Assembly (NCBI RefSeq): GCF_029633865.1
Contig: NC_079213.1
Location: 87,146,293-87,210,292, forward strand
Direction of reading: 5' to 3'
DNA from: Lampris incognitus
Taxonomy: Eukaryota > Chordata > Actinopteri > Lampriformes > Lampridae
Length of the DNA: 64,000 nucleotides
Shown here: positions 3,491 through 59,663 of the stretch, piece after piece
Layout: each line of letters starts with the position of its first letter
How positions within the stretch are numbered: the stretch's first letter is position 1
Made by a program: the position numbers and the translations under genes
The notes under the pieces: generated by a model
What the model was told of the DNA's origin: nothing
The model's input: only the letters and a program-made list of their open reading frames with translations
Database searches by the model: none

Positions 3491-3690
3491 ATGGGCAGCA
3501 CGGTGGCCCAGTGGTTAGCACTGTCGTCTCATGGCAAGAAGGTCCTGGGTTCGACCCCGGGGGTGTCCAACCTTGGGGATCATCCCAGGTCGTCCTCAGT
3601 GCGGAGTTTGCATGTTCTCCCCATGTCTGCGGTTGGTTTTCTCCAGGTGCTCCGGTTTCCCCCACCATCAAAAAAGAAACATGCATATGT
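3491..3690 (+). repeat. tRNA-derived SINE, family B, head only
   Basis: The sequence has a tRNA-like head: AGCACGGTGGCCCAGTGG and TTAGCAC as the A-box area, and GGGTTCGACCCC as B box near 3547. The body contains GGAGTTTGCATGTTCTCCCC, the hallmark of this common fish repeat. The same body is present in inverse orientation at 33.1, 36.2 and 40.4 kb. This copy ends abruptly in an A-rich stretch near 3675-3690 and lacks the GGAT-repeat tail. Confidence 0.8.
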
Positions 3691-5987: not shown

Positions 5988-7782
5988 AGAGCTGTATTGG
6001 AGGCTTTGACCACTGGCAGCAGCCTCTGAAGACCTTTCTCTGAAGCAGAGTATTTCTTCAAGTCAAACACATCCAGCTCCTTTTCTGAAGACAGTAAGAT
6101 GAATACCAGGGCTGACCACTGAGCAGAAGAGAGTCGGTCTGTGGAAAGTCTTCCTGATCTCAGGTACTATTTGATGTCCTCCACTAGAGAATGGTCATTC
6201 AGTTCATTCAGACAGTGGAACAGATTGATGCTTCTCTCTGGAGGGAGATTCTCCCTTATGTTCTTCTGGATGTACACGAGTGTTTTCTGATTGACCTGTG
6301 ATCTACTTCCTTGTCTGTCTCATCAGGCCTCGTAGAAGATTCTGACTGGTCTCCAGTGAGAAGCCCGGGAGGAAGCACAAGAACAAGTCCAGGTGTACAT
6401 CTGGACTCTGTAAGGCCTTGTCCATGGCTCTCTGGTAGAGGTCTGGTTCTTTACATTTGTCTCTAAATTTTTTAGACCTGTAGGAGCTTGACTGTGTTTC
6501 TGACAGCAGATTGACTCCAGTGTTGATGAATAAGAGAAGGACATAAAGAGCAGCTAGAAACTCTTGAATGCTCAGATGGACAAAGCAGAAGACCTTATCC
6601 TGGTACAGCCCACACTCTTCTTTAAAAAACTGTATGAACACACTGAGGCTGCTCTGATATCAATGCCACACTCTGTCAGATCTGCTTCATATAAGATCAG
6701 GTTGCCTTTCTCCAGCTGCTCAAAGGCCAGTTTTCCCAGAGATGCAATCATCTTCCTATTCTCTGTATTCCAGTGTGGCTCTGTCTTAGCTCTTCCATGA
6801 TACTTCACATTCCCCTGGATGGACTGAACCACCAGGAAGTAGATATACATCTCAGTCAGGGTCTTGGGCATCTCTCCTCTCTCATCGGTTTTCAACATGT
6901 GATCCAGAACTGTAGCAATGATCCAACAGAAGACTGGGATGTGACACGTGATGTGGAGGCTTCGTGTTGTCTCGATTTGTGAGATGATTCTTCTTGCCTG
7001 CTTCTCATCTTTGAATCTCTTCATGAAGTACTCTTCCTTCTGTGACTCAGTGAACCCTCTCACCTCTGTCACCATGTCAACCCACTCAGCAGGGATCTGA
7101 TTGGCTGCTGCAGGTCGTGTGGTTATCCAGAGGTGAGCAGAGGGAAGTAGTTTCCTCTTGATGAGGTTTGTCAGCAGCACGTCCACTAAGGTGGACTCTG
7201 TGACATCAGTCAAGATTTTATTGTTCTGGAAGTCCAGAGGAAGTCAACACTCATCCAGACCGTCAAAGATGAACACAACTAGGAACTCATCAAAGCTGCA
7301 GATTCCTGCTTCTTTGGTTTCAATGAAGAAGTGATGAAGAAGCTCCACCAAGCTGAACTTTTTCTCATTCAGCACATTCAGCTCTTTGAACATGAGTGGA
7401 AACGTGAACTGTATATTGTGGTTGGCTTTGTCTTCAGCCCGGTCCAGAGTGAACTTCTGTGTTAAGACTGCTTTACCGATGCCAGCCACTCCCTTTGTCA
7501 TCACTGTTCTGGTTGGTTTATCTTGTCCAGGTAAGGGTTTAAAGATGTCTTCACATCTGATAATTTTTTCTGGTCTCACTGGTTTCCTGGATCCTGTTTC
7601 AATCTGTCTGACCTCATGTTCATTATTGACCTCTCCACTCCCTCCCTCTGTGATGTAGAGCTCTGTGTAGATCTGATTCAGAAGTGTTGACTCTCCTGGT
7701 TTTGCGACGCCCTCAAACAAACACTGAAACTTCTCCTTCAGAGCAGCTTTGAGTTTACTCCGGCACACAGCAACAAAAGTTT
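5988..7782 (-). pseudogene. NLR pseudogene: FISNA-NACHT exon
   Basis: The exon starts after TTCAG at 7783 and ends before GTATGT at 5987. The N-terminal part has the FISNA signature ([23 protein letters not shown]). The NACHT P-loop reads [12 protein letters not shown], where NACHT proteins have GKT or GKS; the change to Ala removes the residue that binds the nucleotide-associated magnesium. Walker B is FIFDGLDEC, followed directly by TGA (7246-7244), an expected Arg codon changed by C-to-T. Sensor and winged-helix segments follow (LWITTRPAAANQIP; FVHLSIQEFLAALYV). The 2-nt insertion near 6640 duplicates GT; later breaks at about 6313 and 6169-6167 split the NACHT-associated helical region. 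Confidence 0.9.
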
Positions 7783-8103
7783 CTGAACAAACCAACAAAT
7801 AAATGAAATAAATAAACAAAGCTTTAAAAAGAAATGTATTATAATTGTCTTAAAGAGGTTCTCTCTGGTATTATTGTTCTGATGAGAACCACTGTCATCA
7901 GCATTTTACACCCACATTAACCAATCAATAATTTAACCAGATTATCCATTATATTTCTGCTCATTTACCATCTAAATCAAAACTGTCTGAACCTTGTTTC
8001 ATAAAGCTATATTTTCAGCAGGGTTTGAAAATAATTCCCTCTCCCATTTTGCCTCCATTGACCCATTACATGGTGTTGAGCTTTTGAATAAAGAGCCTCT
8101 TAC

Positions 8104-8315
8104 TGCTCTCCAGAGAGTCAGCCAGCTCCTCCTGCTTCATACTGCTCAGGAAGTGCAGTGTGTTATACAGAAGTGCCTCTTTGGCATGCCTCCTCTGCTC
8201 CTCCCCCTCCTCCCTCCATATCTCTAAGCACTCTGGGTAATCTGGACTCAGAACCTTCTGGAACCTCTTCAGCTCCTTCTTCACAAAATTGGCAATGTTT
8301 TGTTTCCTCCATCAG
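8104..8315 (-). pseudogene. NLR pseudogene: exon upstream of FISNA
   Basis: The exon is bounded by TCCAG on its 5' side (8316) and GTAAGA on its 3' side (8103). It encodes the conserved linker with KKELKRFQKVLSPDYPEC and MKQEELADSL found just before the FISNA exon in fish NLRs. Four extra bases in the ACAAAAC stretch near 8295-8300 shift the frame relative to the family. The preceding exon, 8985-8907, encodes GQSVQEHQTGLDSIFM and ends in ATG|GTGTGT, also as in the family. Confidence 0.8.
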
Positions 8316-9681: not shown

Positions 9682-10240
9682 TTAACCGTCAGAGAATGAG
9701 AATGTGTTAATGCCATCTCCACAGCTGCAAGAGCGCTATAGAGGGCATATGTGTGTAAGTGCGATAACAACAAAGAATACCTACACAAATGTAAGTGTAA
9801 TTACAACAACATACATGTCAACACCAACAGCAACAGCTGTTATACTGCAAATCAAGGCCGCTAGTTTTGTGACACCCTGAATCACCTGTAACCTAGTCTA
9901 CAAACTTCTTGTTCAGTTTAAGCAGCTGCTGATTTTCAAAGTTAATTGAGCTCATCCATTTAGTGGTAAAAAACATTAAACAGGCTTGTGCACGCCTACT
10001 TTCTCTCTCTGTCTCTCTCTCTCAGAGAGGTACAAACTACAAAGTAATGTCCACATGATGATGCTCACAAGTGTTACAAAATTAAAGGAACTAACATAAA
10101 AGAGCAGCAATATTCCAGAGAGGAATATTGCAAATCAAGGCCACTAGTTTTGTGACACCCTAAATCACCTATAACCTAGTCTACAAACTTCTTGTTCAGT
10201 TTAAGCAGCAGCTGATTTTCAAAGTTAGTTGAGCTCATCC
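9421..10240. repeat. tandemly repeated 3' region of the hAT element
   Basis: The block AACTTCTTGTTCAGTTTAAG, with following bases through GAGCTCATCC, appears at 9421, 9903 and 10186. The last copy forms the transposase 3' end. Between the first two, a longer shared block recurs (ACAAAGTAATG, CACATGATGA, AGCAGCAATATTCCAG). The unit is therefore about 482 bp with a partial third copy 283 bp further. The copies differ by scattered substitutions, so the duplication is not recent. Confidence 0.8.
9646..9678. repeat. (TG)n microsatellite inside the hAT element
   Basis: About 16 TG units. Confidence 0.95.
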
Positions 10241-13200
10241 TTGCTCGCTTTGCAGTGAACAGTAATCCAGCACAACTGAAAAGCCGCTCGCAGGCAGCTG
10301 AAGCAGGCAGGCCAGTGTTGAGTTTCAGAGAGAGTTTTTTTAAATTTGGAAAGGAGTTTAGCAGATCCATATCGTTTGGGATACAGGCTAGGTACCCTTC
10401 CAACTCCCCTGTACCTTCTGACCTTCTGGACTTCATTGAGGAGAAGAAATCCTCTTCATCTGAGGAATGTTGTCCAACTTGCTCCACTTCCACCTCTGCC
10501 ATCTGGTCAAGGTGTTGTCTGACATAAGCCAGACCTGTCGAGTGACAAACAACACATTTCTGACAATTAAGACTTGATTAATTTACCAAGAGTGCACCAT
10601 AATGCATAATGCCTTATAGCACTGACCACATTGTATTGAGTATAAAACAAAGTAGATCTCCAATAAACTGTTGAAAAGCAGTTTATTATAAGATGCAATC
10701 ATACCTGTTTCTATGACATCAGGCCTCTCTGTCCAGGTGGTCTTGAACTTCGGTAGAAGTATTGCTGCCGCAATCAGTTCTGGGTCCATCATCATCTCAC
10801 CAAAACGCTTTTGGACACCATCCTGAATGGCTTTGATGAGTGGTAGACACATCTTGGATGAGGTCTCCTGCCTTTTGAGTTTTGCTTGTAGCTGACATAT
10901 CACTGAAAGAAGCCACCCTAAGTGTGTGTTGGTCTCTGACTGAAGTATGTTCAAGGCCTTTACCAGAGGTTTCATCACCGAGCAGTAATCAGTCAGGAAA
11001 GCAATTTCTGCTTGAGTCAGCCTGGCATAAATAGAATACAAACAATTGTTAGGAAATCAAGCAGGAAAAGTTAAGTTTCAAGTATGTAAACACACATTCA
11101 CACTTTCATACTGTTGAAATGCAAATTAAAACTTACATTTTCAATTTGAATTCTTCACAAATATTCCTGATTGCCTCCCCCCCTTTCTCTTGTATGATCC
11201 GTATGATTCTCTCCACAGCCATGAATGTTGAATTCCACCGCGTTTGATTTGGTCGGATGAGCTGGAGTCGGCAATGATCTTCCACAACTTCTGCTGCCAT
11301 GTATGAACGACCCGTCTTGTTCCACATGGCTTGACATTTCCCAAAGGCTGCACGTGATAGTCTCTTGTATGTGCCCATCTTCTTTTCTGCTATCTCAGCA
11401 TCTGTTGTGGCAACTAAGTTGAGAAGATGGCATGCACACCTTTGGTGTGTAGGAAGTTGGTACTCCAGGCCATTATCTTGCTCCAGGATGCTGAATGTGT
11501 CCAGGTAGTTGGCTGTGGGCTCATCATCAATTGAATCTCTGTCCGACTCAGCATCTGATTCTGCATCCTCAGACTGGCTCTGTTCTCCGAAGACACTAAA
11601 AGCTTTAACGAAGTTTGAGCCACTATCTGTTGTGGTTCTCACCACTTTGCCCCTAATTCTATACTGACAGTGTATGTCGTCAAGTGCCCCTGCAAGGACA
11701 TCAAAGGTGTGGGACCCTCTTAACCTCTTACATGCAAGCGCAGCTGATCTCCTCTCAAAGGTTTCTTCATCCACCCAATGACCCGTCACCCCAATAAAAC
11801 TTTGCTGGTGTGCAGTCCAACAATCTGTAGTGGTGGCAACGTAGCTCACTTTACTGAGATGGGACATGACATTCTTCTTCATCTGAATGGCAGGTGCCTC
11901 TAATCTTGTCCGGACAGTGGGCCTGGAAATGACCTTGCATTGTGGATTTAGCGTTGTCAAAAGTTCTTTGAACGCAGGTTGTTCAACCAAACTAAATGTA
12001 TGAAGGCCCTCACATATTAGCCTAATGATGATCTTGTCGATCTTGCCTTGTGGCACACGGCGGTTGCCTCCCACTGTCGTGGCATCTTTTATATTTGTTT
12101 GCTTGCTTGGACTTGGTGGATTTGCTTGGTGGGTTCGCTTCCCTGGCTTTGCTCGGCTAAAAGCCAACTGTTTCGATGGATGTTTCCTCTGTGAAAAAAA
12201 AGAAAAGGGTATTATCAGTAGAGGAATCAATGTGGTGCTTATTAAACACACTGAAATTAAAACTTTGATAAATAAAAGTTTTCTATTTCCTTAGTCATCA
12301 CATTTTGTCTATTACATTGTATTAAGCACAATATGCCACAATCCAGAGGGCATTACAATGCTGCACCCTTCCCAACAAAATCAATGATTTGGATTTGAAT
12401 GCTAAAATTGAGATTTCAAATCAACATCAAAAGCCAATGTGTTTCTATAGCCTACCAGTATTATGATACAGAGGAAGGAGACATATCAATGCATGTGTAA
12501 TCATCATAGCTGCTTGCATGCACACAGAGCAACAATCGCCTACTAGTGATCTAATCCCTTGTCGTCGATATGAAGGAGTCAAAACAATCTTTTCTGGGTC
12601 TGCCTAGTAGGCGGGGAGCTACGAGGCCTTACCGTGCAGTCGTGCACCCTCCTTACAATCGAACGAAACCAACTTTTTTTGAAAGGTCTGACCGTGCTGA
12701 ACATGTTAACAAATGTTAACATTGAAAATTTTGGGTTGCACGTCATGTTTCAGGTACTCAATGCATTTCAATGTATTTCCCTCCATTGGCTCTCCACGAG
12801 CAAAGGGAAGGTGTGACATCTGTCTCTGCATGTTTAATCACATCTAGAGGACACAAGCTTTTGGAAAATGTATGGTTTCAGTGGTATTATTGGTTTTCCA
12901 TAATAGTAGAGACCGAAATTTAAAGTCTTTCTACTTGATTTGCCTTGTAAATCGAGTAGAAAGACTTTACATTTTGGCCTTTATTATTTAGAGAAAGCCA
13001 ATAATACCACTAAAACCATACATTTATCACTAGATGTGATTAAACTTGCAAAGACAGATGTCACAGTTTCCCCTTGCTCATGGAGAGTCATGTTCCTGTA
13101 ATTGTAATGCATTTCCAATGGAGGGAAATACATTGAAATGCATTGAGTACCTGAAACATGAAATGCAGCCCAAAATTTTCAGTGTTAACATTTGTTAACA

Positions 13201-22199: not shown

Positions 22200-22774
22200 G
22201 GGCTTGGATGAGGAGACCTAGAGGAAAAGCTCCAGCGTGGGCTCCTGACAGGGTCAGTCCTATGTAATGCAATGTGTTGTATGCCTGTCTATAAAGATAC
22301 TTCCTTTAGTCCAAGCCTTGTACAAACAGGCAGCTTTACAGCCAATACGCCACATCCTGATACCAAATCCTGTGAACTACAAAGCAGTAGTAATGGTATA
22401 GTGACCCTGCCCTGGAGGTGACAGTGACTGTGAAGCCAAGTGACGCCACATGCTTGTTTACTTTGGCAGCAGGCCCGACCCTGCTGTGCCTCAGACTGCA
22501 GGGCTGATTCCAGTTGATTCCAGTTAAACAATATAAGAAGCCTCCCAGATGACAGACAGTGCAGGGCAACCAATCTGTTGCCAAGACGGTCATGAGCAAA
22601 CGTCAAAGCAGAGTCCAGAGGACGCACTGCAGAGCTGCAATAAAAGTGATCCACATGGTTATATGATTGGGTTGCATGCTTGGAGGCAGCCAGCCTGCAG
22701 AAAGCTACAGTAGACAACACTATATTGTCTTCTAAAGGAAAATGTTACAATAACTAAAGTGACAACGACTATAG

Positions 22775-23114
22775 TGTAACGTGCATGGATAAGAAGACAC
22801 GCTGGCCGCTGGCTCTGACCCCCCCCCCGAATTCGCTACATTGGTGTCAGAAGTGGGATGGAGCGACAGTAAGGCCATCGGAAGCGTATGCGCCCTGAGG
22901 CGTGAAGGAGCTGATATGCTTAAGCGCGGGGACGCGCTTCCCGAAGGAGGGGGGTAGTGTAACGTGCATGGATAAGAAGACACGCTGGCCGTTTGTTCGC
23001 GGGTCTGAACCTTTAGTCGAGCGGTTAGCGATGTCTCCTGCGGTGCAGGCGATACGGGTTCGCTTCCCGGCCGCGGTAGTTCCTGTGGTTGCGTTGTCCC
23101 CCGAATTCGCTACA
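22775..23114 (+). mobile_element. TRIM-like miniature LTR retrotransposon
   Basis: The order is 5' LTR (22775-22840), primer-binding site, 117-bp non-coding interior, polypurine tract, 3' LTR (22958-23114). Both LTRs start TGTAACGTGCATGG and end CGAATTCGCTACA. Directly after the 5' LTR, TGGTGTCAGAAGTGGGAT (22842-22859) is complementary to the 3' end of tRNA-Leu(CAA) as I recall it. GAAGGAGGGGGG (22943-22954) precedes the 3' LTR. The 5' LTR lacks about 90 bp present in the 3' LTR, so it is internally deleted. There is no gag or pol; mobilisation would depend on another element. No clean target duplication is seen (ATAG versus ATAT). Confidence 0.75.
22990..23090 (+). repeat. tRNA-like module within the TRIM 3' LTR
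   Basis: TAGTCGAGCGG (23014-23024) fits the Pol III A-box pattern TRGYNNANNNG. GGTTCGCTTCC (near 23058-23068) fits the B box except for one base. The T arm can form CGGG/CCCG around a seven-base loop. Acceptor and anticodon stems are imperfect, so this is not a tRNA gene. The same module is present in the solo LTR at 43912-44059, so it belongs to the family and is not a local insertion. Confidence 0.6.
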
Positions 23115-23264
23115 ATATGAACAAATGAAAACCTTTCATACTTCTTACATTGGCGTTGTTGGAGGTATATATACTTTACCCACTGAGCTACACAGCATCA
23201 CATAGGTAAGGGGTTGTAAGTTGTATTCTCTGTGCAAACAAATAGATCAAGGAAGGAGAGAAAA

Positions 23265-23962
23265 GGGCCGTTTACACGGCGTTTTCAACATAAAACGGCA
23301 AAGTATTGTTGCGTTTTGGCCGTTCGTTCACACGACAACGGCGTTTTGGGGGCCTCAAAACGCAAACTTTTGAAACCGGGCTCCAGAATGAAATCTTTTG
23401 AAAACGCAACTCCAGCGTCGCCGCGCAAACTAGCAAAACCGGTTCCGGTGAAAACGTCGACGTCACGGCTCCACTTCACACATGCGTATTACGTTTTCAG
23501 TCAAATAGCCGTGTGCGAGTAAGAAGACAACGTTAACAATAGCGGATTATCGAGCTACGTTTGTGCTGTTACCTCTGCTAAATTGATTAATGGAATTTTG
23601 ATGGTTTATAGTCCAGGATCACTTGGAATAGGAACTGCACATCATCGTCCGTCCAGACCAAAATTATCTGTTTTCGGGCGTACACTTCTAATCGTCCGTT
23701 TGTTTACTCACCGTTATGAGAAGTAAGCGTTTGTGCGCAGGCGCGTGGTGTTATTAGGGTCCACCGGAAGACCTCTCTACTACAAAGTTTCACCGCCAAC
23801 TACTGGCCTGGCATGCATACTACAGCGTTTTCAGTCGTTTTTTGCGGATCCGTGTGCATGCGGATCGTATTCAAAACTTTGTCGTCTGAACGCGGAACTT
23901 TTTTAAAACGCAAAGGAAAAACTTTTCCGTTTTTAGCAAGAGCATTGTCGTGTAAATGTAGT
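23265..23962. mobile_element. non-autonomous DNA transposon with TTTACACG ends
   Basis: The left end GGGCCGTTTACACGGCGTTT is imperfectly inverted at the right end (GCATTGTCGTGTAAATG). The interior is studded with AAAACG/CGTTTT motifs in both orientations. It is non-coding. A similar terminal phrase is widespread in fish genomes. Superfamily and exact right border are uncertain. Confidence 0.45.
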
Positions 23963-33863: not shown

Positions 33864-34254
33864 GAGCATCCAGGTAGAGTAACGCTCTATTCCATTGGCT
33901 ACCAACATGGGGATCGTCTCTTAGAATCCCCGTGTTATCTCTGGCTTGGTCGGGCATCCCTACAGTCACAATTGGCCGTGTCTGCGGGTGGGGAGCTGGA
34001 TGTGGGTGTATGTCCTGGTCGCTGCACTAGCACTTCCTCTGGTCGGTCGGGGCACCTGTTTGGAGGCTACGTAACCCCGGCGAAACTCCTCACTGTCAGG
34101 TGGAAAGAAGCAGCTGGCAACCCCACATGTATCAGAGGAATCATGTGGTAGTCTGCAACCCTCCCCAGATCGGCAGATGGGGTGGAGCAGTGACCGGGAA
34201 GACTTGGTAGAGTGGGGTAATTGGCCGGATACAACCGGGGAGAAAATGGGGGGA
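33864..34254 (+). repeat. tRNA-derived SINE, family A, copy 2
   Basis: It has the same body as copy 1 (CTTCCTCTGGTCGGTCGGGG, CACTGTCAGGTGGAAAGAAG) and ends in ACAACCGGGGAGAAAATGGGG. The B box is decayed (CTTAGAATCCC), and about 40 bp around 34063 are missing relative to the others. Confidence 0.85.
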
Positions 34255-34924
34255 AAATTTCATTCTGGTTAAGACCCTCAGCTAAATGAGACTGAAGAGT
34301 AAACATGAACAAATAATGGCAGCCCTCTGCAGTCATCAGATGTGGAAGTGGCCAGAGATGGACTTGGAGATCTACATATTGAGTACAATGATGCTCAACA
34401 ACTGGATCTGTTCCCCGGCACACAAACTGAGAGGCGTCAGTCAGAGAGGACACCCTGAGGTCATCATCTACATGTTACGATCCTCAAACAGCCATAAAAC
34501 TGTCTTTCAGATCAAAAAGAAGCAGGAGCCAAGAGCAACGTTTAAAGGAGATAATATGGCTCGTGTGACCTCCAGTTAGCTGAGAAAGATTTATCCAGCC
34601 TGCTATCTGCCTTCCTCCGTTTCTCAGAAGCAGAGAGGGATTCATTAGGAAACCAAATGAAATTGGAATAAACATATTTGCTTCCGTTTTGCATCCATGA
34701 TTAGAGCAAATACTACTTTTATCCCAAGGACCTAGTATTCACAGAAGTGATTGGAGCTTGTGGTTGTATTGTGTGTATTTGTACATGTGTGTTGTATCAC
34801 AGCTTTAATGTTCAACATCTGGTAACAGTGAAGTCAAAATCATTCCTGGGTGGTCTTATTAGGCACAGGCTCGTGGCTTTCTGAAACGTTTCATCTTAAA
34901 TTAGCAAAGTGAAGCTGTTGCATG

Positions 34925-35628: not shown

Positions 35629-36360
35629 GTGGGTGTCTGGGTAGTGTAGTGGTCTATTCCATTGCCTGCCAACATGGGGATCGCTGGTTCGAATCATCAT
35701 GTAACCTCTGGCTTGGTCGGGCGTCCCTACAGACACAATTGGCCATGTCTGTGGGTGAGAAGCTGAATGTGGGTATGTGTTCTGGTCGCTGCACTAGCAC
35801 CTCCTCTGGTCGGTCGGTCGGGGCGCCTGTTCGGGAGGGGGGACTGGGGAGAACGGCATGATCCTGACATGCGCTATGTCGGCCTGGTGAAACTCCTCAC
35901 TGTCAGGTGAAAAAAAGCAGCTGGCGTCTTCATCGGAGGAGGCATGTGGTAGTCTGCAGCCCTCCCCGGATTGGCAGAGGGGGTGGAGCAGCGACCAGGA
36001 TGGCTTGGAAGAGTAGGATAATTGGCCGGGTGCAATTTTTTTTGATATACTTTATTAATCCTCGTGGGGAAATTATGCTCTGCATTTAACCCCTCCTAGC
36101 TGTGTAGCTAGGAGCAGTGGGCAGCCGTCATGCAGCACCCAGGGTCCAACTCCAGTTCGTCTTGCCATGCACAGACAGGAGTATTAAAACTAACATGCAT
36201 GTCTTTTTTGGTGAGAACATGCAAATTCCACACAGAGGATGACCTGGGATGACCCCCGAGGTTGGACAACCTGGGGGTTTGAACTTAGGACCTTCTAGTT
36301 GTGAGGTGACAGCACTAACCACTGCACCACCAATTTGGGAGAAAAAAAAAGGGGGGGGGG
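35629..36360 (+). repeat. tRNA-derived SINE, family A, copy 3, interrupted
   Basis: This copy has the best-preserved promoter: A box TAGTGTAGTGG (near 35642) and B box GGTTCGAATC (35686-35695). The body runs to 36033, is broken by a family B SINE, and the last part (GGGAGAAAAAAAAAGGGGGG) resumes at about 36336. Confidence 0.85.
36034..36333 (-). repeat. tRNA-derived SINE, family B, inserted in family A
   Basis: CAATTT flanks both sides (about 36031-36036 and 36332-36337), a short target duplication. On the minus strand the copy runs from a tRNA-like head (GGTGCAGTGGTTAGTGC; B-box equivalent decayed) through GGAATTTGCATGTTCTCACC. Its LINE-like tail contains GAGGATTAATAAAGTATATC before poly(A). 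The tail differs from the (GGAT)n-tailed copies, so this is a subfamily. Confidence 0.75.
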
Positions 36361-37480
36361 AGAAGAACATGCAGCCATCTGCCCTTACTCTCTTGGAAAT
36401 GGTTTACCATTACAGCCGGTGAATTCTGTGATGCAGTTGATTTTGGTCAGCTGATCCATTATTGCCCCATTATAGTCTTTATGGAGGGGAGGTCCAACAC
36501 CTCACCTTGGATTGACCCTGTCACCATGCGGCTCAATAGTTATCATGTGGGCTGGAACAGTCAACACCACTGTAAATAAATCGAGTTTTCCTCCAAAATC
36601 AATTATCCACTGTCTGGAAAAATGTGGACAGCTCGTCTGAGAAAATTATTTAGGGTGCAACATTTCAAAGGCTAGAAGGAAATGTAAGCCCTGGCAAAGT
36701 GACTTTTATTGACTTAAACCTTTACATTTTAGAGATGTTGAATAACAGACTTCAGGTAAAATTTTATTTTCTCTTATTTGGATAAATAAAAGCCTTTGCT
36801 GAAAGGCTTTTTCATTTATTACAATTTTATTTATAATTTGAACCTTGTCAGAAACAACCCTTCATGACTTGGTTTTCATATAAACAATAGTAATTTATAA
36901 TTTATGCAATCTCTGCCTGTGAAACACACCACTGGCTCGAAAAGACAGATATATTTTGAACCATGTATAAATATCATATACAGCTGTAGAGATCAGTATT
37001 GCTTTAGTGTTTGATGAAGAAATCACAAAGTCACTTTTAAGACTGACAGAAAACAAACCAATTGGTCCAGGTCGTCATGGAGGCTCTTGACCTTTCCCAG
37101 TTAAACTAATGATTGCTATAAAGTGAGGAGGATATGCTGTCGGCACGTGTCCCTTGTTCTGCAGATAGTCAGGGTATTGCCAGAAGGCAAAGTGATGACT
37201 GGATCCATTGTATATTCGTTCAAGTGGTCCTCCGATCGATCCACAGCGGGAGAGCCACAGGAGTTCTACCATGTGGTGTCGTGTCAGTACATTATGGCCT
37301 GTCAGGCCACTGACTGAGATTACCCGATATAAATCTACCTATCTAGCCATCCGCCTACCAATCCAGGACTCTATCTGCCATTCTATCTTTTGTCCAGCTA
37401 AATTCTGAGCAGTCCAACTGGGCCGTTGGAATGAGATAGTTCACTTCTAAGTAACATGTTGTCATCTTTTTTCTTTTTTT
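36361..37480. other. no gene seen
   Basis: AT-rich intergenic sequence. No feature I can support. Confidence 0.4.
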
Positions 37481-37914
37481 GGACCCCCCCCTTTTTCTCC
37501 CCAATTGTATCCGGTCAATTACCCCTCTCTTCTGAGCCTTCCAGGTTGCTGCTCCACCCCCTCTGCCGATCCGGGTAGGGCTGCAGACTACCACATGTCT
37601 CCTCCGATACACGTGGAGTCGCCAGCCGCTTCTTTTCACCTGACAGTGAGGAGTTTCGCCAGGGAGACGTAGCGTGTGGGAGGATCACGCTATTCCCCCC
37701 AATTCCTCCTCCCCCCCAAACAGGCGCCTTGACCAACCAGAGGAGGCACTAGTGCAGCGACCAGGACACATACCCACATCTGGATTCCCACCCACAGACT
37801 CGGCCAGTTGTGTCCGTAGGGATTCTCGACCAAGCCGGAGGTAACACGGGGATTCGAACTGGTGATCCCCGTGTTGGTAGGCAACGGAATAGACCGCCAC
37901 GCCACCCGGACACT
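37481..37914 (-). repeat. tRNA-derived SINE, family A, copy 4
   Basis: Inverse orientation. The tail complement CCCCCCCCTTTTTCTCCCC lies at the left, and the tRNA-like head with GGTTCGAA-type B box is complementary to GATTCGAACTGG at 37852-37863. It is nearly full length and the least diverged of the five copies by eye. Confidence 0.88.
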
Positions 37915-37932
37915 CTTAACATGTTTTAGCTG

Positions 37933-43640: not shown

Positions 43641-43911
43641 GAGTATGTCAGTTTCTTTGCATCTGGTAGCAAATGCAGGTGCAGAGGGTAGAACAGTTTA
43701 AAAACTGATGGGATGGCTTTATACAGTGAGGCAACATTAAACAAATATCGTCTCACAGGAGTTTAGATGGAGATAAGGGATACAAGGTGACCCTGGACTA
43801 TCTGGTTAATTTACAAGAAAACGTCTAGCTTTATTGTAGTAAACTCACCCTGTTTTGTTCACATACCAACCTGAGACAAAATGTGTCACAGCACCTGCTA
43901 TTGTAGCGAAT

Positions 43912-44059
43912 TCGAGGGGGCCACGCAACCACAGAAACTACCGCAGCCAGGAAGTGAGCCCGTATTGCCCGCACCGCAGGAGACATTGCTAACCGCTCGA
44001 CTAAAGGATCAGATTCGCCAGTGAGCGGCCTGCATGTCTAATTATCCATGCGCGTTACA
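43912..44059 (-). mobile_element. solo LTR of the TRIM-like family
   Basis: On the minus strand it starts TGTAACGCGCATGGATAA and ends CGAATTCGCTACA, 148 bp, collinear with the 3' LTR at 22958-23114 including the tRNA-like module (TTTAGTCGAGCGGTTAGC is shared exactly). No interior, primer site or polypurine tract is attached, so it is a solo LTR left by recombination. Confidence 0.8.
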
Positions 44060-47470: not shown

Positions 47471-49144
47471 CACCTATCAGCCAAAACATTATAACCAACT
47501 GCCTAATATGGTGTAGGTCCTCCTTGTGTCACCAAAACAACTCTGACCAATCAAGGCATGGAGTGCACAAGACCTCTGAATGTGTTCTCCGGTATCTGGC
47601 ACCACGACATTAGCAGCAGATCCTTTAAGTCCTGTAGGTTGTGAGGTGGGACCTCCATGGATTGGAATTGTTTTCCAACACATCCCACAGATACTCGATC
47701 GGATTGAGGTCTGGGGAATTTGGAGGCCAAGGCAACACCTTGAACTCTTTGTCATGATTCTTAAACCATTCCTGAGTAATTTTTGTAGCGTGACAGGGCG
47801 CATTATCCTGCTGAAAGAGGCCACTGCCATCAGGGAATAGCGTTGCCATCAAGGGGTGTACCTGGTCTGCAACAATGTTTAGGTAGGTGCTACATGTCAA
47901 AGTAACTTCCACATGAACGCCAGGACCCAAAGCTTCCCAGCAGAACATTACCCAGAGCATCATACTGGCGCTGCTGGCTTGCCTTCTTCCCATAGTGCAT
48001 CCTGGTGCCATGTCTTCCCCAGGTAAATGACGCACACGTACCTGGCCATCCATGATGTAAAAGGAAACAGACAAGGCCACCTTCTTCCATTGCTCCATGG
48101 TTCAGTCCCTTTTTTTTTGGATTCCCCCCCCCCCCTTTCTCTCCTCAATTTTACTTGGCCAACTACGCCACTCTTCCGAGCTTTCCTGGTCACTGCTTCA
48201 CCCCCTCTGCAGATCTGGGGAGGGCTGCAGACTACCAAATGCCTCCTGTGACACATGTGGAGTCGCCAGCCGCTTCTTTTCACCTGACAGTGAGGAGTTT
48301 TGCCAGGGGGACATAGCACATGGGAGGCTCATGCTATCCCCCCCAGTTCCCCCTCCTCCCCCAAACAGGTGCCCCGACCGACCAGAGGAGGTGCTAGTGC
48401 AGTGACTAGGACACATACCCACACCCGGCTTCCCACCTGCAGAAACGGCCAATTGTGTTTGTAGGGAAACCGGACCAAGCCAGAAGTAACACGGGGATTT
48501 GAACCGGTGAGCCCCATGTTGGTAGGCAACGGAATAGACCACCATACCACCCGGATGCTCTCAAGGTCCAGTTCTGACACTCAGGTGCCCATTGTAGATG
48601 CTTTGGATGGTTGACAGGGATCAGCACGCACACTCTGACTGGCCTGCAGCTACACAGCCCCATACACAGCAAGCTGCGATGCACCGTGCATTCTGACACC
48701 TGTCTACCATAGCCAGCATTAACTTTTTCAGCAATTTGAGCTACAGTAACTCTTCTGTGGGATTGGACCAGACGGGCTACCCTTTGCTCCCCACGCACAT
48801 CAGTGAGCCTTGTACACCCATGACCCTGTCGCCAGTTCACCGGTTGTCCCTCTTTGGACCACTTTTGGTAGGTAGTGACCACTGCATATTGGGAACACCC
48901 CAGAAGACCTGCCATTTTGGAGATGCTCTGACTCAGTCGTCTAGCCATCACAATTTGGCCCATGTCAAAGTCACACAGATCCTTCCGCTTGCCCATTTTT
49001 CCTACTTCTAACATGTCAACTGCAAGCACTGACTGTTCACTTGCTGCCTAATATATCCCACCCCTTGACAGGTGTCATTGTAACGAGATAATCAATGTTA
49101 TTCACTAAACCTGTCAGTGGTTTTAATGTTTTGGCTGATTGGTG
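47471..49144 (-). mobile_element. Tc1-like DNA transposon, inactive
   Basis: TA flanks both ends (47469-47470, 49145-49146). The termini CACCTATCAGCCAAAAC and CACCAATCAGCCAAAAC (inverted) match over about 27 bp with two differences. The minus-strand transposase has the N-terminal helix-turn-helix region ([28 protein letters not shown]) and, after a SINE at 48107-48564, the catalytic part with DNAPCH (second Asp) and PPNSPDLNPIE (Glu). The first catalytic Asp region (DESRF expected) is replaced by VSFYIMDG. A frameshift follows WDVLEN. The transposase is dead for three independent reasons. Confidence 0.88.
48107..48564 (-). repeat. tRNA-derived SINE, family A, copy 5, in Tc1 transposase
   Basis: Flanking duplicates GGTTCAGT (48099-48106) and GGTCCAGT (48565-48572) mark insertion into the coding part of the Tc1 transposase. 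Inverse orientation, full length, with head complement GATTTGAACCGG at 48496-48507 and A-rich tail TTTTTTTTGGATT on the left. Confidence 0.88.
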
Positions 49145-50616: not shown

Positions 50617-53600
50617 GATCCAAGGCCCCTGAGCAGAAAGGGGCCCCGTCAGTTTGGCTCTGAACTGGGAACGGGTTCGGTGCCAGTTTGCAAACCCTTT
50701 TTTTATTTTTTTTTTATTTTATTTTTTTATAACTTTGTTTATTTAATTTTCCGCACAATAAACATTTACAAAATAATTGTCCTCATAAGTTGTACAGCAT
50801 GAACACAAAACACATCCAACAATACACTAACACACCAGAATACAATGAGGAATAAAAACACACCCTCAAAGGAGAAAAAAAAATCAAATCAAATCAAAAC
50901 AAATTAACTAAAATAATTAAAAAAATAAAAAATAAATAAAAATAAATAAATAAATACAAGTACACATATTCCAATGCACTTGTCCGCAGGCCAGCCAACC
51001 CAGCACAGTCCCTCACAGACATCATGTACACATACACCCTGCCTCCTTCATCACCGGAGCTTGCCACGCCCCCACCTCCATCCAACAAGGACATCAATAA
51101 AAAGGAAAAAATATGTATATATATATATATACACACACATCACTCTGGAATAACAGGGAAATGAAGTCGCTTAACATAAGAAAAGAAGGGGGTCCACATT
51201 GCCCAGAATTTGTTTAGGGACCCTTTGAGTGTGTGCCTAATTTTTTCCAGCTTTATACAATTTAAAACAGACTTAATCCAAAGAGCATGAGAAGGGGGTA
51301 CAGAGGATTTCCAACTAAGCAAAACCAATCGTCTCGCCAACAGGGTAACAAAGGCAATAAAATCCTTATTAATATTGGTCAGTTGCAATGTGGGCGAGGG
51401 CACCCCAAATAGCGCAATAAAAGGGTCTGGCTTGATCTGTGTGTCACATACTTCTGAAAGTGTGCTAAAAATATCTTTCCAAAAACCATCAAGAGATGAG
51501 CAACACCAAAACATGTGCACATGATTAGCAGGAGACTGGTTACACCTCACACAGTTAGGATTTATGTCTTTGTAAATTTTCGCTAGTCTCGCTTTGGTCC
51601 AATGAGCCCTATGAATGATTTTGCATTGAATGAGACCATGTCGGGCGCAGACCGAAGAGGTATGTACCCTTCCGAGTGCCCTCTCCCACAGCCCATCAGA
51701 TATTACCTCCCCCAGTTCCTCCTCCCATGAGGATTTAATGTCATTAAGTGAGGCAATTCTTAAAGAACAAATTTGTCTATAAATTATTGACAAGGTACCT
51801 TTCAGAGTGGGAAGCGGGGTAAGAAAGGTGTCAAACTGTGTTTCACCAGGAAGGGTGGGTAAATGAGGATCCAAATTGCGGACGTAACTCCGGATCTGTA
51901 AAAATCTAAAAAAATGATGCCTGGGAAGACCAAATTTAACTGCTAGTTGCTCAAACGTACTAAATGTATTGTCAATGTAGAGATCTTTAAACCTTTTTAT
52001 ACCAAGACTAGACCATATTGAGAAAGCACTATCAACCATAGATGGGGCAAAAGCAGGGTTCGAGGCCACCGGAGCAGAAAGAGAGGTTGTCTGAAACCCA
52101 AAATGGTGTCTAAATTGATTCCAGATCCTCAATGTTGTTTTGACACACACATTCTTGGTGAAAGAGGAATAAGGGCCTGTAATGGAGGAGTGAGCGAGGG
52201 AAGACAATGATGCCGGTACAGACGAAGCAGCTTCCATCTTTAACCAAATTGGGGACGGGGACATCTCTCCACCTCGCAACCAGAACTGAATGACCCTAAG
52301 ATTAGCCGCCCAATAATAAAATCTAAAATCTGGTAGCGCCATACCTCCGTCTGACTTGGGTCTCTGCAAGAGCTGTTTTCGTATCCTAGGAGTCTTCTTA
52401 TCCCATATGAAAGGTAGAATTAGGCCGTCTATTTTTTTGAAAAATGTGTTGGGAAGAAAAATCGGTAGGCACTGAAAGAGATATAAAAATTTAGGGAGTG
52501 TGTTCATTCTAACAGAATTAATTCTCGCTACTAAAGAGAGGTGCATCACTGACCAGCGTTCAAAATCATCCTTAGTGCGGGTTAAAAGCGAGGAAAAGTT
52601 GGCCCGAAAAAGGTTTTCAAATCGACTCGTGACCTGTACACCAAGATAAGTGAAACAACTATGAGCAACTTTGAATGGCAAGGTATGTAATGGGAATTTT
52701 TCCGCAGTCACATTAAGCGGCATCAATTCACTTTTACTGAGATTCAGTTTATACCCTGATAAATGACCAAAGGATGTAATAGTAGCAAGGGCAGCAGGAA
52801 CAGAAACAGAAAGATTAGATGTGTATAGCAATAAGTCATCTGCATATAAAGACACCTTGTGCTCATGTCCGTATCTAACTATACCTTTGATAAGAGGGTT
52901 GGAACGAAGTGCTATTGCAAGGGGTTCTATGGTGAGAGCAAACAATAAAGGGCTTAGAGGGCAACCCTGGCGTGTTGACCGTTGCAGAGGGAAACAGCCT
53001 GACTGAGTGTTATTAGTCCTGACAGAGGCTTGGGGGGACGCATACAGAAGTCTTACCCAAGTAGTGAATTTTGAACCAAAGCCGAATTTATTTAGTGTAT
53101 AGAAAAGGTACTTCCACTCCACCCTGTCAAACGCCTTCTCCGCGTCCAGGGATATAATGGCCTCCGAGGTGTTGGTGTCAGAGGAATTGTACATGATATT
53201 AAATAGTCGCCTAAGATTGAAGAATGAATGTCTATTTCTAATAAATCCTGTTTGATCAGGAGAGATAATCGATGGGAGAACTGTTTCCAGGCGTGTTGCC
53301 AGAAGTTTGGCTAAAATCTTATAGTCAACATTTAACAGGCTAATTGGACGATATGATGCACATTCAAGAGGGTCTTTATTATTTTTAAGAATTAAACAGA
53401 TAGTCGCTTGAGTGAGAGTCTGTGGAAGAATACCATTAACAAATGTTTCATTATACATTTCAATTAGAATAGGGGGCTATTTTGGGGAAAAGCTTTTTAT
53501 AAAACTCTGTCGAGTAACCGTCAGGCCCTGGGCTTCTCCCGGATTGAAGGGATTTGACAGCTCTAGACAGTTCTTCAACAGTGATTGGTTGTTCTAATTC

Positions 53601-53734
53601 TTTAACCAAATCCTGGTTGACTAAAGGTACATCAAGGGAGTGGAAGAAGTCATCAAATTCTGATAAATCAGCATCACTTTCAGAAGTATATAGAGACTGG
53701 TAGAAACTTCTGAACTCATCATTTATCTCCCTAG

Positions 53735-54462
53735 TGTTAGGGCTCGGTCTGTTGACCAACCTGGCAACCAGCAATGAGAGCGGGGGAGGGGCGCGTCTGA
53801 AACACCTGCAGCCTGCCTACTCGTTTACCACTCTAGTATAAGTTTGTTTGCTTTCCAGAACTCGTCGCGAGTTCGTCCTGAACAGTCCCGTGAGTAAATT
53901 CTTCGTCTCGAGTTTTGTGACATTTCTGTGTCTCCCGGTGGAGTACAGATTGTAGTATTCTCCGTGTTTTTGCTTGTTTGATTATTCCCTTGTGTCAGTT
54001 CTCCTTGAGAGCTTGTTCGGAGAAGAACTCTCTTTGTGTTTTCCCCATTGGATTTTCCCATCGTGATTTTCTAGTTGAGATCAAGTTTTTGATATTCTAA
54101 TTTCTCCCCTCTCACTGTGGATCTTATTACTCGGTTGGACTTCTACCTTAAAGGAGCAGTTTGTGTTTTTTCCCCTTTCGGACTTTAAAGGAGCAGTTTG
54201 TGTTTTTTCCCTTTCGGACTTTAAAGGAGCAGTTTACGTTTTTTCCTTTCGGACTTTAAAAGGAGCAGTTTACTTTTTTTCCTTTTCGGATTAAGGGGGC
54301 AGTTTACGTTTTCCCATTTTTAAGAAGCTATTCTCAAGTTCCGCCTGAAGCGCCTCCCCCTTCTGTCCAGGCCCGGCCGGCTCTCCTCTACGAGTCCTGC
54401 CAGGTTGGTGCTTTACTTTGTCTTGTGTTGTCGCTATTGGGTTCGTTCTACAAACCTTAACA
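53735..54462 (+). repeat. 5' LTR of the Gypsy element
   Basis: It contains TATAAG (53837-53842), about 30 nt upstream of GCGAGTTCGT (53867-53876), the likely RNA 5' end. A block of five roughly 36-bp tandem units (AAGGAGCAGTTT ... TTTCGGACTT) at 54148-54325 could be an enhancer-like array in U5/R. The 3' LTR carries the same array at 59349-59526. Confidence 0.95.
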
Positions 54463-54480
54463 GTACGAACTCGCCTTCAC
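54463..54480 (+). promoter_or_regulatory. primer-binding site, probably self-priming
   Basis: Directly after the 5' LTR, ACGAACTCGC (54465-54474) is the exact complement of GCGAGTTCGT in the LTR at 53867-53876. No match to a common tRNA 3' end is evident. Tf1/Sushi-group elements prime reverse transcription with the 5' end of their own RNA, which this pairing reproduces. Confidence 0.65.
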
Positions 54481-54481
54481 T

Positions 54482-55585
54482 ATGAACCCAGACAACCCAG
54501 ACGCCAATCCTGTCCAGGCTGCTCTCTATAAGCAGATTCAGCTTACAGCCTCCCACGGCCAGCAACTACAAGAGGCCGCTGTTGCCATGCAGGGCCTCCG
54601 GGCTCAGGTGCAACCCCTCCAGGCTTCGGTGGATTCTCTTTCGGCCCAGCAAGCGGCGCTCGCGAGCCAACAAGAGGAGGTTCTTAAGCAGTTGCAAACT
54701 CTCACAGCGGCTATCACCATCCAGCCAGCTGTCCCACCAGTTCCGGCCGCCCCTCCTCCAGCAGTGCCCGCAGCCGTTGCCTTAGACAATCCTACCGTTT
54801 ATGTTTCGGATTTCCGGGAGCCCAGTATCTCCAATCCCAGGCCTTTTGATGGCAACTTTGAGACCTGTGCCACGTTCATCATGCAGTGTGAGCTTGTCTT
54901 CGCCCACCATTCCAGGGGGTTCACCACAGATGCTGCAAAAGTTGCTTACGTGACTAACCTGCTGACTGGCCGCGCTGCTCAGTGGGCCACTGCTTCCTGG
55001 TCCATGGGGGCCAGTTTCTGCTCTTCCTACGATGACTTTGTGGCTGAGCTTCGGAAGGTATTCCATCATCCAGTGTACGGTCAGGATCCGGGTGTCCGAT
55101 TGAGCAGGATCCAGCAGGGCAGTGGCAGTGTCGCTGACTACTCAGTCGAGTTCAGGCTGGCTGCGGCTGAGAGTGGCTGGAACGACCAGTCACTTCGGGT
55201 AACCTTCCGTAGGGGCCTCAGCGATGCCGTCAAGGATCAGCTAGCCACCCGGGAGGATCCTACCTCTCTCGACGACCTTATCAGCCTTGCCATCCGCATC
55301 GATGGACGTCTCCGCGAGAGAAGGCGCGAGCGAGGTCTACGGGGAACCGTTTCTACCTCTCAGCCATCCAGAGCTTCCGAAGGGGGCTCTTCTTCGTCGC
55401 ACTCCACTTCCCCTGTGGCAAGCCTCTCCTCCTCCCAGACAGTGACAGAGGAGGAACCTATGCAGCTTGGGCGTACACGACTGACTCCCGCTGAACGTGA
55501 GGCCCGGTTCAAGGCAGGTCTCTGTCTTTACTGCGGTCTTAAGGGACACCGGATCAGCGAGTGTCCTACGCGGCCAAAAGATTAG
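54482..55585 (+). CDS. gag: Gypsy Gag polyprotein, 367 aa
   Basis: The frame starts 20 nt after the 5' LTR with [12 protein letters not shown] helical/coiled N-terminal part rich in Gln and Ala (about residues 12-80) is followed by a Pro/Ala linker. Then comes the capsid-like domain ([41 protein letters not shown]), a basic/Ser-rich stretch, and one CCHC zinc knuckle [14 protein letters not shown] (about residues 347-360) that binds RNA. It is intact and overlaps pol by 25 nt. Codon use is GC-richer than the surrounding AT-rich DNA, consistent with recent arrival. Confidence 0.93.
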
Positions 55586-58500
55586 GCTCACTGGGACCCC
55601 GGGAGATCCTAGTGAGCCGTCTTTCCTGTTCCCGCCATCCTGCTCCGGCTAACCATCTTGTGAGCGTTACCCTGGCTTGGGCAGACCAGCGGCTCACTGT
55701 AGGCGCACTCATCGATTCGGGAGCTGATGGGTGTTTCTTGGACTCTACGTTTGCTGCTCAAGCTAACATTCCATGTGAGGAATTGGAGAGGCCAATAGAG
55801 GCCTTTGCTCTGGATGAGCGCCGCCTGGCCAGTGTTACCCGACAGTCCTGTCCCGTGTCTCTCACTATTGCTGGAAACCATGTGGAGAGCCTTCAGTTCT
55901 TCGTCATCCAGTCTCCCTTAGTTCCTGTGATCTTGGGGCGTCCCTGGTTGGCTCAGCATGAGCCACACATTGCTTGGTCGTCTGGTAACATTTTGGAGTG
56001 GAGCTCCTCCTGTCACGCCCGGTGTCTTCAGGCCGCACCTGGTCCAGCAGTCCAGACTGTTCCGATTGCCCCTCCTCCCGATCTTTCCTCTGTTCCTCCC
56101 GAGTATCATGATCTCGGGGAGGTCTTCAGCAAGACGCGGGCTCAGTCTCTCCCTCCGCATCGGCCATATGATTGTGCTATCAACCTCCGTCCTGGGGCCT
56201 CTCTCCCTAGCAGTCGTCTTTACAGCCTTTCCATCCCCGAGAAGGCTGCTATGGACGATTACATTTCAGAATCGTTGGCGGCAGGGCTCATCCGACCCTC
56301 ATCCTCCCAGGTGGCAGCTGGTTTCTTTTTCGTTAAGAAGAAGGATGGTGGTCTCCGACCCTGCATTGATTATCGCCAACTCAACGACATCACCATCAAG
56401 AATAAATACCCCCTGCCTCTGATGAGCTCCACCCTCGAACCCCTGACCCAGGCGACTGTCTTCACTAAGCTGGATCTCCGGAACGCCTACCATCTCGTTC
56501 GGATCCGGAAAGGGGACGAGTGGAAGACAGCCTTTAAGACTCCCCGTGGTCATTATGAGTACCTGGTAATGCCGTTCGGCCTCACCAACGCCCCGGCGGT
56601 GTTCCAGGCACTCATGAATGACATCCTTCGCGACATGCTCGACCAATTCGTTGTCGTCTACCTTGATGACATCCTCATCTTCTCCAGGTCCCTCGAGGAG
56701 CATGTCCAGCACGTGCGGCAGGTTCTCGAACGCCTCCTTCGTAACCGGCTGTTCGTCAAGGCTGAGAAATGCCTGTTCCATTCTGAGTCAGTGGACTACT
56801 TAGGTTTTATCGTGGAGGGAGGCAAGACTCGAGCTGATCCTCGCAAGATCAAAGCGGTGGTGGAATGGCCGGATCCTAAGTCACGTAAGGAACTGCAGAG
56901 CTTCCTCGGGTTCGCGAACTTTTACAGGAGGTTCGTCCGAAACTACAGCTCTGTAGCAGAACCCCTCACCCGTCTAACCTCCCCCTCTCAGCCGTTCGTC
57001 TGGTCCCCAGCTGCTCGCTCTGCATTTCTGTCGCTCAAGGAGAGGTTCACCAGTGCCCCCGTCCTACTCCATCCCGATCCCAAGAGGCAGTTCATAGTTG
57101 AGGTGGACGCTTCGGACACCGGATTGGGGGCTGTGCTCTCCCAACGATCAGAGGCCGACCAGAAGGTTCATCCTTGCGCGTTCTTCTCCCGCCGGTTCCT
57201 TCCCGCCGAGGAGAACTACGATGTTGGTAATCGGGAGCTTCTCGCTGTAGTGGCTGCACTTGAGGAATGGCGCCATTGGCTGGAGGGGGCAGAGCATCCA
57301 TTTACCATCTGGACTGATCATAAGAACCTGACGTTCATCCGGGCAACCAAACGTCTCAATGGTCGGCAGGCACGGTGGGCCAGCTTCCTCAGTCGGTTCG
57401 ACTTCACACTGACTTATCGTCCTGGCTCCCGCAACACCAAGGCAGATGCTCTGTCTCGTCAACACCTTAAGGAACCTGTAACGGTGGAACCAAGTCCCGT
57501 CCTCCCTGAGACCAAGGTCGTTGGCGTGGTGACCTGGGGCCTTGAAACGGTGGTCAAGCGCGCCTTGCGCTCCAGTCCAGCCCCGAGCAACGTGCCGCCT
57601 CGCCGACTGTTTGTTCCGGACTCAGTGAGGTCTCGGGTCCTCAAATGGGGCCACACCAGTCAGCTCGCTTGCCACCCTGGAGTCCACCGCACTTTCACTT
57701 TCATAGCTCGACGGTTCTGGTGGCCCACTATGAGGAAGGACGTCAAGGAGTTCGTCATGGCCTGCACCATCTGTGCCCGCAGCAAGGCCTCTCACCAGGC
57801 ACCGGCTGGTCTGCTGCAGCCCCTTCCTATTCCCAGTCGGCCCTGGTCCCATGTGGCGTTGGATTTTGTCTCTGGACTTCCTCCGTCTCAGGGCAACACA
57901 GTGATCCTGACGGTGGTGGATCGCTTCAGCAAGGGTGCTCACCTGGTGGCTTTGCCTAAGCTTCCTTCTGCTTCAGAAACCGCTGACCTCCTGATGAGCC
58001 ACGTCTTCCGTTTGCATGGACTTCCCAAGGACATTGTGTCAGACAGAGGGCCCCAGTTTGTTTCCCGTGTGTGGCGTGCTTTCTGCAAGGGGTTGGGCGC
58101 CTCGGTCAGCCTTTCGTCGGGATATCATCCGCAGACTAACGGACAGACTGAGAGGATGAACCAGAGTGTGGAATCTGCTCTCCGTTGCGTCGCTGCCAAG
58201 AAGCCAACCTCCTGGAGTCAGTTTCTCCCCTGGGTCGAGTATGCGGTCAACTCCCTGGTCAGCTCCGCCACCGGCCTCTCGCCCTTTGAGGCATCCCTGG
58301 GTTACCAGCCGCCCGTCTTCTCTGCACAGGAGTCCGAAGTGGAGGTTCCCTCCTTGCAGACTCATCTGGACCGCTGTCGTCGTGTCTGGGAGATCACCAG
58401 GGCTGCGCTGCTCCGTGCTACGGAACGTGCCAGACGAGGAGCTAACCGTCGCCGATCCACAGCACCAGCTTACCAACCCGGACAGAGAGTCTGGCTGTCC

Positions 58501-58794
58501 ACCAAGGATCTCCCCCTTCAGTCCTCTGCCAAGAAGCTTAATCCCCGGTTCGTTGGACCCTTCAAGATCCAGGAAGTACCCAGTCCTGCAGTTGTGCGTC
58601 TTAAGCTCCCGGCCTCCATGAAGATCCATCCGGTTTTTCATGTGTCCCGAGTAAAGCCTGTCTCCGAGAGCCCCCTTATGCCTCCGGCCCCAGCTCCGCC
58701 TCCCCCTGAGATTGTGGATGGGCATCCACAGTGGAAGTTTCCGTCGGCTGATGGACGTCCGACGCAGGGGACGGGGGTTCCAGTATTTGGTTGA
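55561..58794 (+). CDS. pol: Gypsy Pol polyprotein (PR-RT-RH-IN), 1077 codons from first ATG
   Basis: The frame is -1 relative to gag, so translation probably uses a -1 shift near the gag end; no canonical slippery heptamer is obvious. Domains: aspartic protease IDSGAD (Asp52); reverse transcriptase with LDLRNAYH and YLDDILIF (Asp369-Asp370); RNase H VDASDTG (Asp516) and DHKNL; integrase HHCC zinc site (His705; CTICARS); and the catalytic triad Asp768, Asp828, Glu864 (D-35-E spacing); then the GPFKI and [11 protein letters not shown] parts. All catalytic residues are present. The frame ends in 20 residues of out-of-frame sequence because of a 1-nt change near 58755; the chromodomain lies in the next frame. 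Confidence 0.95.
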
Positions 58795-58978
58795 CTGGGA
58801 GGGCTATGGGGTGGAGGAACGAAGCTGGGTATCCCGCCAGCTCATCATGGACCCTGGTCTGCTCGCTGAGTTCTATCGCCGTCACCCTGACAAGCCTGGC
58901 AGGTCGCCTGGTGGCTCCCGTAGAGGGGGGGGTACTGTTAGGGCTCGGTCTGTTGACCAACCTGGCAACCAGCAATGA
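58755..58978 (+). pseudogene. chromodomain of Pol, displaced by a frameshift
   Basis: In the frame after pol, [20 protein letters not shown], then [17 protein letters not shown] and AEFYRRHP form a typical chromovirus chromodomain with its aromatic residues (Tyr, Trp, Trp) kept. It directly continues the pol C-terminus if one base in AAGTTTCCGTCGG is discounted. It has no start codon of its own except an upstream ATG at 58712. Chromodomains steer integration to histone marks, so this copy's integrase would lack that module. The remaining frame runs into the LTR start. Confidence 0.85.
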
Positions 58979-59663
58979 GAGCGGGGGAGGGGCGCGTCTG
59001 AAACACCTGCAGCCTGCCTACTCGTTTACCACTCTAGTATAAGTTTGTTTGCTTTCCAGAACTCGTCGCGAGTTCGTCCTGAACAGTCCCGTGAGTAAAT
59101 TCTTCGTCTCGAGTTTTGTGACATTTCTGTGTCTCCCGGTGGAGTACAGATTGTAGTATTCTCCGTGTTTTTGCTTGTTTGATTATTCCCTTGTGTCAGT
59201 TCTCCTTGAGAGCTTGTTCGGAGAAGAACTCTCTTTGTGTTTTCCCCATTGGATTTTCCCATCGTGATTTTCTAGTTGAGATCAAGTTTTTGATATTCTA
59301 ATTTCTCCCCTCTCACTGTGGATCTTATTACTCGGTTGGACTTCTACCTTAAAGGAGCAGTTTGTGTTTTTTCCCCTTTCGGACTTTAAAGGAGCAGTTT
59401 GTGTTTTTTCCCTTTCGGACTTTAAAGGAGCAGTTTACGTTTTTTCCTTTCGGACTTTAAAAGGAGCAGTTTACTTTTTTTCCTTTTCGGATTAAGGGGG
59501 CAGTTTACGTTTTCCCATTTTTAAGAAGCTATTCTCAAGTTCCGCCTGAAGCGCCTCCCCCTTCTGTCCAGGCCCGGCCGGCTCTCCTCTACGAGTCCTG
59601 CCAGGTTGGTGCTTTACTTTGTCTTGTGTTGTCGCTATTGGGTTCGTTCTACAAACCTTAACA
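58936..59663 (+). repeat. 3' LTR of the Gypsy element
   Basis: Same length and, by eye, the same sequence as the 5' LTR, including the tandem array and the TATA region (TATAAG at 59038). Preceded by the G-rich polypurine tract. Confidence 0.95.

Follow-up and report, generated by a model that had tools for sequence, protein, structure and literature searches.

A probable Helenus-type mini-LTR retrotransposon with a partly tRNA-like LTR module, damaged in its left LTR

The name "TRIMp3" has been proposed to unite three kinds of TRIM, namely Helenus, Ajax and Cassandra (Kojima, 2024; PMC10886601). According to this published description, Helenus elements are TRIMs with tRNA-derived sequence in their LTRs and occur in fungi, animals and one plant; among fishes, they are described in zebrafish and other ostariophysans, sturgeon, paddlefish and coelacanth. 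Most are shorter than 1000 bp and are composed, like LTR-11_DR of zebrafish, of two LTRs with tRNA-derived A and B boxes, a primer site for the 3' end of a cellular tRNA and a purine tract, without coding capacity, and solo LTRs also occur. Animal Helenus elements have 4-bp target duplications, the vertebrate ones are primed by tRNA-His, tRNA-Leu or tRNA-Lys, and their mobilisation by a Gypsy-type partner was inferred in the same study. Cassandra, in plants, shares with the element described below a TRIM organisation and a Pol III promoter position in the LTR, but its promoter is derived from 5S rRNA and its Pol III transcripts have been reported. Ajax, in nemerteans, shares the TRIM organisation, a promoter derived from a small RNA and a tRNA-Leu primer, and differs by its partial 5S rRNA promoter and its 5-bp target duplications (PMC10886601).

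The element studied here occupies positions 22775-23114 of a 64-kb window, i.e., the whole stretch of DNA that was analysed. By direct reading and by comparison of the window with itself, its 340 bp are composed, on the forward strand, of a left (5') LTR (22775-22840, 66 bp), a primer-binding site, TGGTGTCAGAAGTGGGAT (22842-22859), starting one base past this LTR, an interior of 117 bp (22841-22957) that includes the primer site and ends with a polypurine tract, GAAGGAGGGGGG (22943-22954), followed by TAG, and a complete right (3') LTR (22958-23114, 157 bp). The LTR pair with its TG...CA ends, the primer site, the 117-bp interior and the purine tract, all proposed by the initial annotation, were thus seen in this order. 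The two LTRs are identical over their initial 34 and their final 17 bases, and self-comparison detects two direct terminal repeats, one of 44 nt at 93% identity (from 22772 and 22955) and one of 17 nt at 100% (from 22824 and 23098). As TAG precedes both LTRs (22772-22774 in the left flank, 22955-22957 at the end of the interior), the true left boundary may lie up to 3 bases farther out. The primer site is complementary, at 18 of 18 positions, to the terminal bases of vertebrate tRNA-Leu(CAA), its CCA included; the next best match to it elsewhere in the window has 4 mismatches, and its letters were not found in the open-licence literature.

The interior, whose length was read from the single interior-bearing copy in the window, was described initially as non-coding. 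The open frames that cross it extend into an LTR or into the flank, and the sole frame searched against proteins, a minus-strand frame of 125 codons spanning the element, gave 479 candidates, none with E<=1. The length is as described, and the interior is read as non-coding. Exact-pattern scans of viral contigs and of genome contigs gave 0 matches in each, and a distant-mode comparison with phage records gave no match either.

The right LTR contains an A-box-like sequence, TAGTCGAGCGG (23014-23024), and a B-box-like sequence, GGTTCGCTTCC (23057-23067), the latter inside a T-arm-like hairpin, and the spacing of the two boxes is tRNA-like. Their letters are TAGTC (one base off), CGG and GGTTC. 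Pairs of boxes with at most one mismatch per box were observed three times in the window, versus 0.19 expected per 64 kb under a first-order Markov null (about 0.0005-0.0008 per LTR), the two other pairs, at 3504 and 35642, being the heads of SINE-like repeats. Accepting up to 2 mismatches for the B box raises the observed number to 4 and the expected one to 3.3; there is no excess, and this looser rule is therefore uninformative.

Likeness to tRNA extends beyond the boxes, but only in part. In local alignments with 11 human tRNAs, the core of the right LTR scores 39 with tRNA-Gly(GCC), 36 with tRNA-Asp and 30 with tRNA-Glu, over a background of mean 20.2 (sd 3.3; 3194 tiles); 0.25% of the tiles reach at least 39, a fraction that includes the tile of the core itself and the SINE heads. 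When a covariance model is made with 8 tRNAs, it matches the T-arm side only, at 14.3 bits (E 0.021 per 64 kb), which ranks fourth among the 14 matches listed. ARAGORN finds 0 tRNA genes, and no Rfam family reaches its gathering score anywhere in the window; at E<=10, Rfam gives no tRNA within 22700-23200, where the only match is a sub-threshold one to a snoRNA, in the interior. Folding is no better than that of shuffles, either for the right LTR core (z -0.13) or for the core of a second LTR copy presented below (z +1.98), and no cloverleaf is formed. A functional tRNA gene is thus rejected by the ARAGORN and Rfam results, and a folded cloverleaf RNA by the comparison with shuffles. The tRNA-like module of the initial annotation is retained as regards its A and B boxes and its T-arm side. 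A box pair with partial tRNA likeness, but with neither tRNA call nor fold, points to a promoter relic keeping A and B boxes and not to a tRNA; as judged from its letters, the module is only partly tRNA-like.

One alternative would be that an ordinary, autonomous Gypsy-type element, transcribed by Pol II, has suffered an internal deletion, and that the A- and B-like letters of its LTR are fortuitous. This would accommodate the single interior-bearing copy, the partial tRNA likeness, and the primer site and purine tract, which are common to LTR elements generally. We nevertheless hold it to be improbable, as so close a pair of boxes is hardly expected by chance in an LTR, and as the full-length Gypsy of the window differs by its 731-bp LTRs, by the sequence past its left LTR and by its 5-bp duplication, CCTAG. 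Moreover, Gypsy LTRs are usually longer, and 157 bp is short for one of them. The best reading of the module is a putative tRNA-derived, potentially Pol III-promoting sequence in a TRIM-type element.

A second copy of the LTR lies on the reverse strand at 43902-44059 (158 bp), between the flanks ATTG and ATAG. It aligns with the right LTR over its full length, including the tRNA-like core, with 85% identity (24 differences in 158 columns, 17 of the 23 substitutions being transitions). Its A box is kept, whereas its B box, GGCTCACTTCC, with GGCTC, shows three departures from the consensus; its alignment score with tRNA-Gly is 29, and it is not among the 14 matches listed for the covariance model. 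Between box A and the anticodon-like loop, the two LTRs differ at 1 of 37 columns, versus 23 of 121 elsewhere (Fisher p 0.017, for a stretch picked after the alignment had been inspected), which is a weak hint of constraint. We infer that this copy is a solo LTR of the family, left by recombination between LTRs. The window thus contains two loci of the family, one of them paired, and every family-level statement made here is based on these two loci.

When the three LTRs are aligned, the tRNA-like core is found in two of them, the right and the solo LTRs, and is entirely absent from the left one. As it is present in both the right LTR and the second copy, the core was present in their common ancestor, and the best interpretation of the left LTR is a later loss of this core, probably by a deletion between C-rich stretches. 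Beside the gap, about five aligned bases differ between the left and right LTRs, some of them matching the solo LTR, and a complex deletion or a recombination may account for them.

The opposite order of events, in which the core-less left LTR would be the original form and the core of the right LTR a SINE-like insertion into one LTR, is very unlikely. It is true that the entire core makes the difference between the two LTRs of the element, that a few bases upstream of the gap are common to the left and solo LTRs and not to the right one, and that the score of one SINE-like stretch (36200-36410, reverse strand) against the core is reached by only 5 of 200 shuffles. This stretch is however one of seven, and the scores of the six others do not exceed those of shuffled sequences (they are reached by 53 to 200 of the 200 shuffles); the flanks of the core show, by eye, neither target duplication nor tail; and in the solo LTR, too, this core is found at the corresponding position. 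Taken together, the solo LTR and the shuffle scores lead us to reject the insertion of a single SINE into one of the LTRs. The unrelated SINE, inserted once, that had been named initially as the case to look for is likewise countered by the second copy, which indicates that the tRNA-like part is a feature of the family. As for ordinary tRNA-derived SINE copies misread as an LTR element, short repeats with a tRNA head do resemble SINEs when they occur as solo copies, but the TG...CA ends, the paired repeats, the primer site, the purine tract and a right end common to both loci, without A-rich or simple-repeat tail, make this hardly credible.

The element at 22775-23114 is therefore a damaged copy and not an intact specimen. 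With good confidence, we assign this copy to the Helenus-type TRIMs; its complete LTR would carry a tRNA-derived internal Pol III promoter. The A and B boxes and the T arm ascribed to the LTR by the initial annotation do exist in the right LTR, but the 66-bp left LTR is devoid of them; the mention there of a "complete LTR" hints at an incomplete left one, a point that was left undiscussed. The proposal of a TRIM with a tRNA-like Pol III module accordingly stands as the best reading of the element, except that the module is missing from the very LTR in which it would act.

In intact copies, transcription would start from the A and B boxes of the left LTR, a putative Pol III promoter, and proceed across the interior into the right LTR. 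An autonomous partner, probably of Gypsy type, would supply the proteins for reverse transcription; tRNA-Leu would presumably prime the first strand at its binding site, and the second strand would be synthesised from the purine tract, two sites that are both seen in the element. Integration by the proteins of the partner would then make a short target duplication. As the core of its left LTR is lost, the present copy lacks the promoter needed to move again; the promoter surviving in the right LTR alone would read outward into the flank. There is no TTTT within the element, which is not rare by chance for 340 bases, the next one being at 23282; none is present inside the solo LTR either, and one lies 20 bases downstream of it. 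The predicted Pol III transcript would consequently not be forced to stop inside the element, and would cross it to end in the flank.

A putative 4-bp target-site duplication is formed by the left flank ATAG (22771-22774) and the right flank ATAT (23115-23118), with a match of 3 of 4 bases that is weak when taken at this one locus (about 5% by chance). Since the flanks of the solo LTR also match at 3 of 4 bases, the joint chance is about 0.003, assuming equal base frequencies. The CpG ratio of the element is 1.13, versus 0.49 for the window. Together with the identical LTR ends, which amount to 51 bases picked for being identical, this ratio suggests a fairly recent insertion; the imperfect duplication and the bases that differ next to the gap point the other way.

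Compared with the published description of Helenus (PMC10886601), the element has the same traits: a small size, paired LTRs, boxes A and B in the LTR, a tRNA-Leu primer, a purine tract and no apparent coding capacity. It departs from it in some respects. Its box A reads TAGTC, versus TRGCY in most Helenus elements; its target duplication matches at 3 of 4 bases, versus the 4-bp duplications of animal Helenus; and its core is nearest to tRNA-Gly and tRNA-Asp among the 11 tRNAs compared, whereas fish Helenus elements are aligned with tRNA-Val (Figure 2 legend, PMC10886601). As Helenus was published in 2024, in several fishes, the novelty suggested by the initial annotation, which knew of no described fish family like this, does not hold, and the element is not an undescribed second route to a TRIM with Pol III transcription potential, this kind being already in print (PMC10886601). 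Among the matches listed from the open-licence literature, there was no other fish case of such elements.

What may be new is the host, probably an acanthomorph, and a core nearer to tRNA-Gly/Asp than to the tRNA-Val published for fish. Acanthomorphs are absent from Table 1 of the Helenus study, and neither "Perc" nor "tRNA-Gly" appears in its main text (PMC10886601). The host of the window is likely an acanthomorph, as suggested by fragments of a fish NLRC3-type NACHT gene at 6572-8293 on the reverse strand (the upstream frames being our own reading). The fragment at 6575-7240 (reverse strand) has 418 protein matches with E<=0.001; among the best 120 of these 418, the best named ones by E-value are Diretmus argenteus (79%), Channa argus (76%), Plectropomus (75%), Pungitius (74%) and Perca (75%), with shorter-stretch matches of 78-80% in Scortum, Labrus and Fundulus, versus 67% in the salmonid Hucho and up to about 61% in ostariophysans; NLR genes forming a large family, these similarities are only a pointer to acanthomorphs. 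A codon-usage scan of the window gave no single-copy gene among the segments listed. One tentative possibility, which we think somewhat less probable than its contrary, is that a Helenus lineage of acanthomorphs acquired a Gly/Asp-type tRNA head separately from the lineage of ostariophysans, and that Pol III-driven mini-LTR retrotransposons arose more than once in ray-finned fishes. Should the host be an acanthomorph, the vertebrate range of TRIMs with a tRNA promoter would come to include a very large bony-fish group, in support of repeated origins. Such LTRs scatter tRNA-like promoters, and call for caution, as they may be taken for SINEs or for pseudogenes of tRNAs.

SINE-like repeats derived from tRNA are also present in the window. 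They share A and B boxes with the element, but their heads (near 3493 on the forward strand, 36336 on the reverse and 35635 on the forward) are of Val type, and no LTR, primer site or purine tract was seen in them. The tRNA-Val-like heads are located at 3493-3569, 35635-35719 and 626-693 on the forward strand and at 36267-36336 and 48488-48556 on the reverse strand, and copies of a related repeat of about 400 bp lie at 619-1058, 33864-34255, 35633-36037, 37466-37919 and 48112-48564.

The full-length Gypsy-type retrotransposon mentioned above, at 53732-59663, has LTRs that are 99.86% identical and open gag and pol frames, and seemingly is a very recent insertion. It was rejected as the parent of the element because of its different LTR length, its lack of such a primer site and its 5-bp duplication; having no tRNA-Leu-type primer site, it is also unlikely to be the mobilising partner. 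Within each of its LTRs, a stretch of about 73 bp is duplicated in tandem with 86% identity (54145-54312 and 59346-59513). In a protein search with its gag, the leading named match is Hippocampus comes, with 69% identity over 74% of the query, below six higher rows at 63-76%; this, too, points to an acanthomorph host. By our own reading, LINE-like frames flank this Gypsy on the reverse strand, at 51140-53476 (reverse transcriptase part) and at 59658-62623 (endonuclease-like part and preceding ORF), so that it seems to have inserted into a LINE. Finally, our reading of the translations points to hAT-type transposase-like frames at 10176-12290 and to broken Tc1-type transposase frames at 47625-49047, both on the reverse strand.
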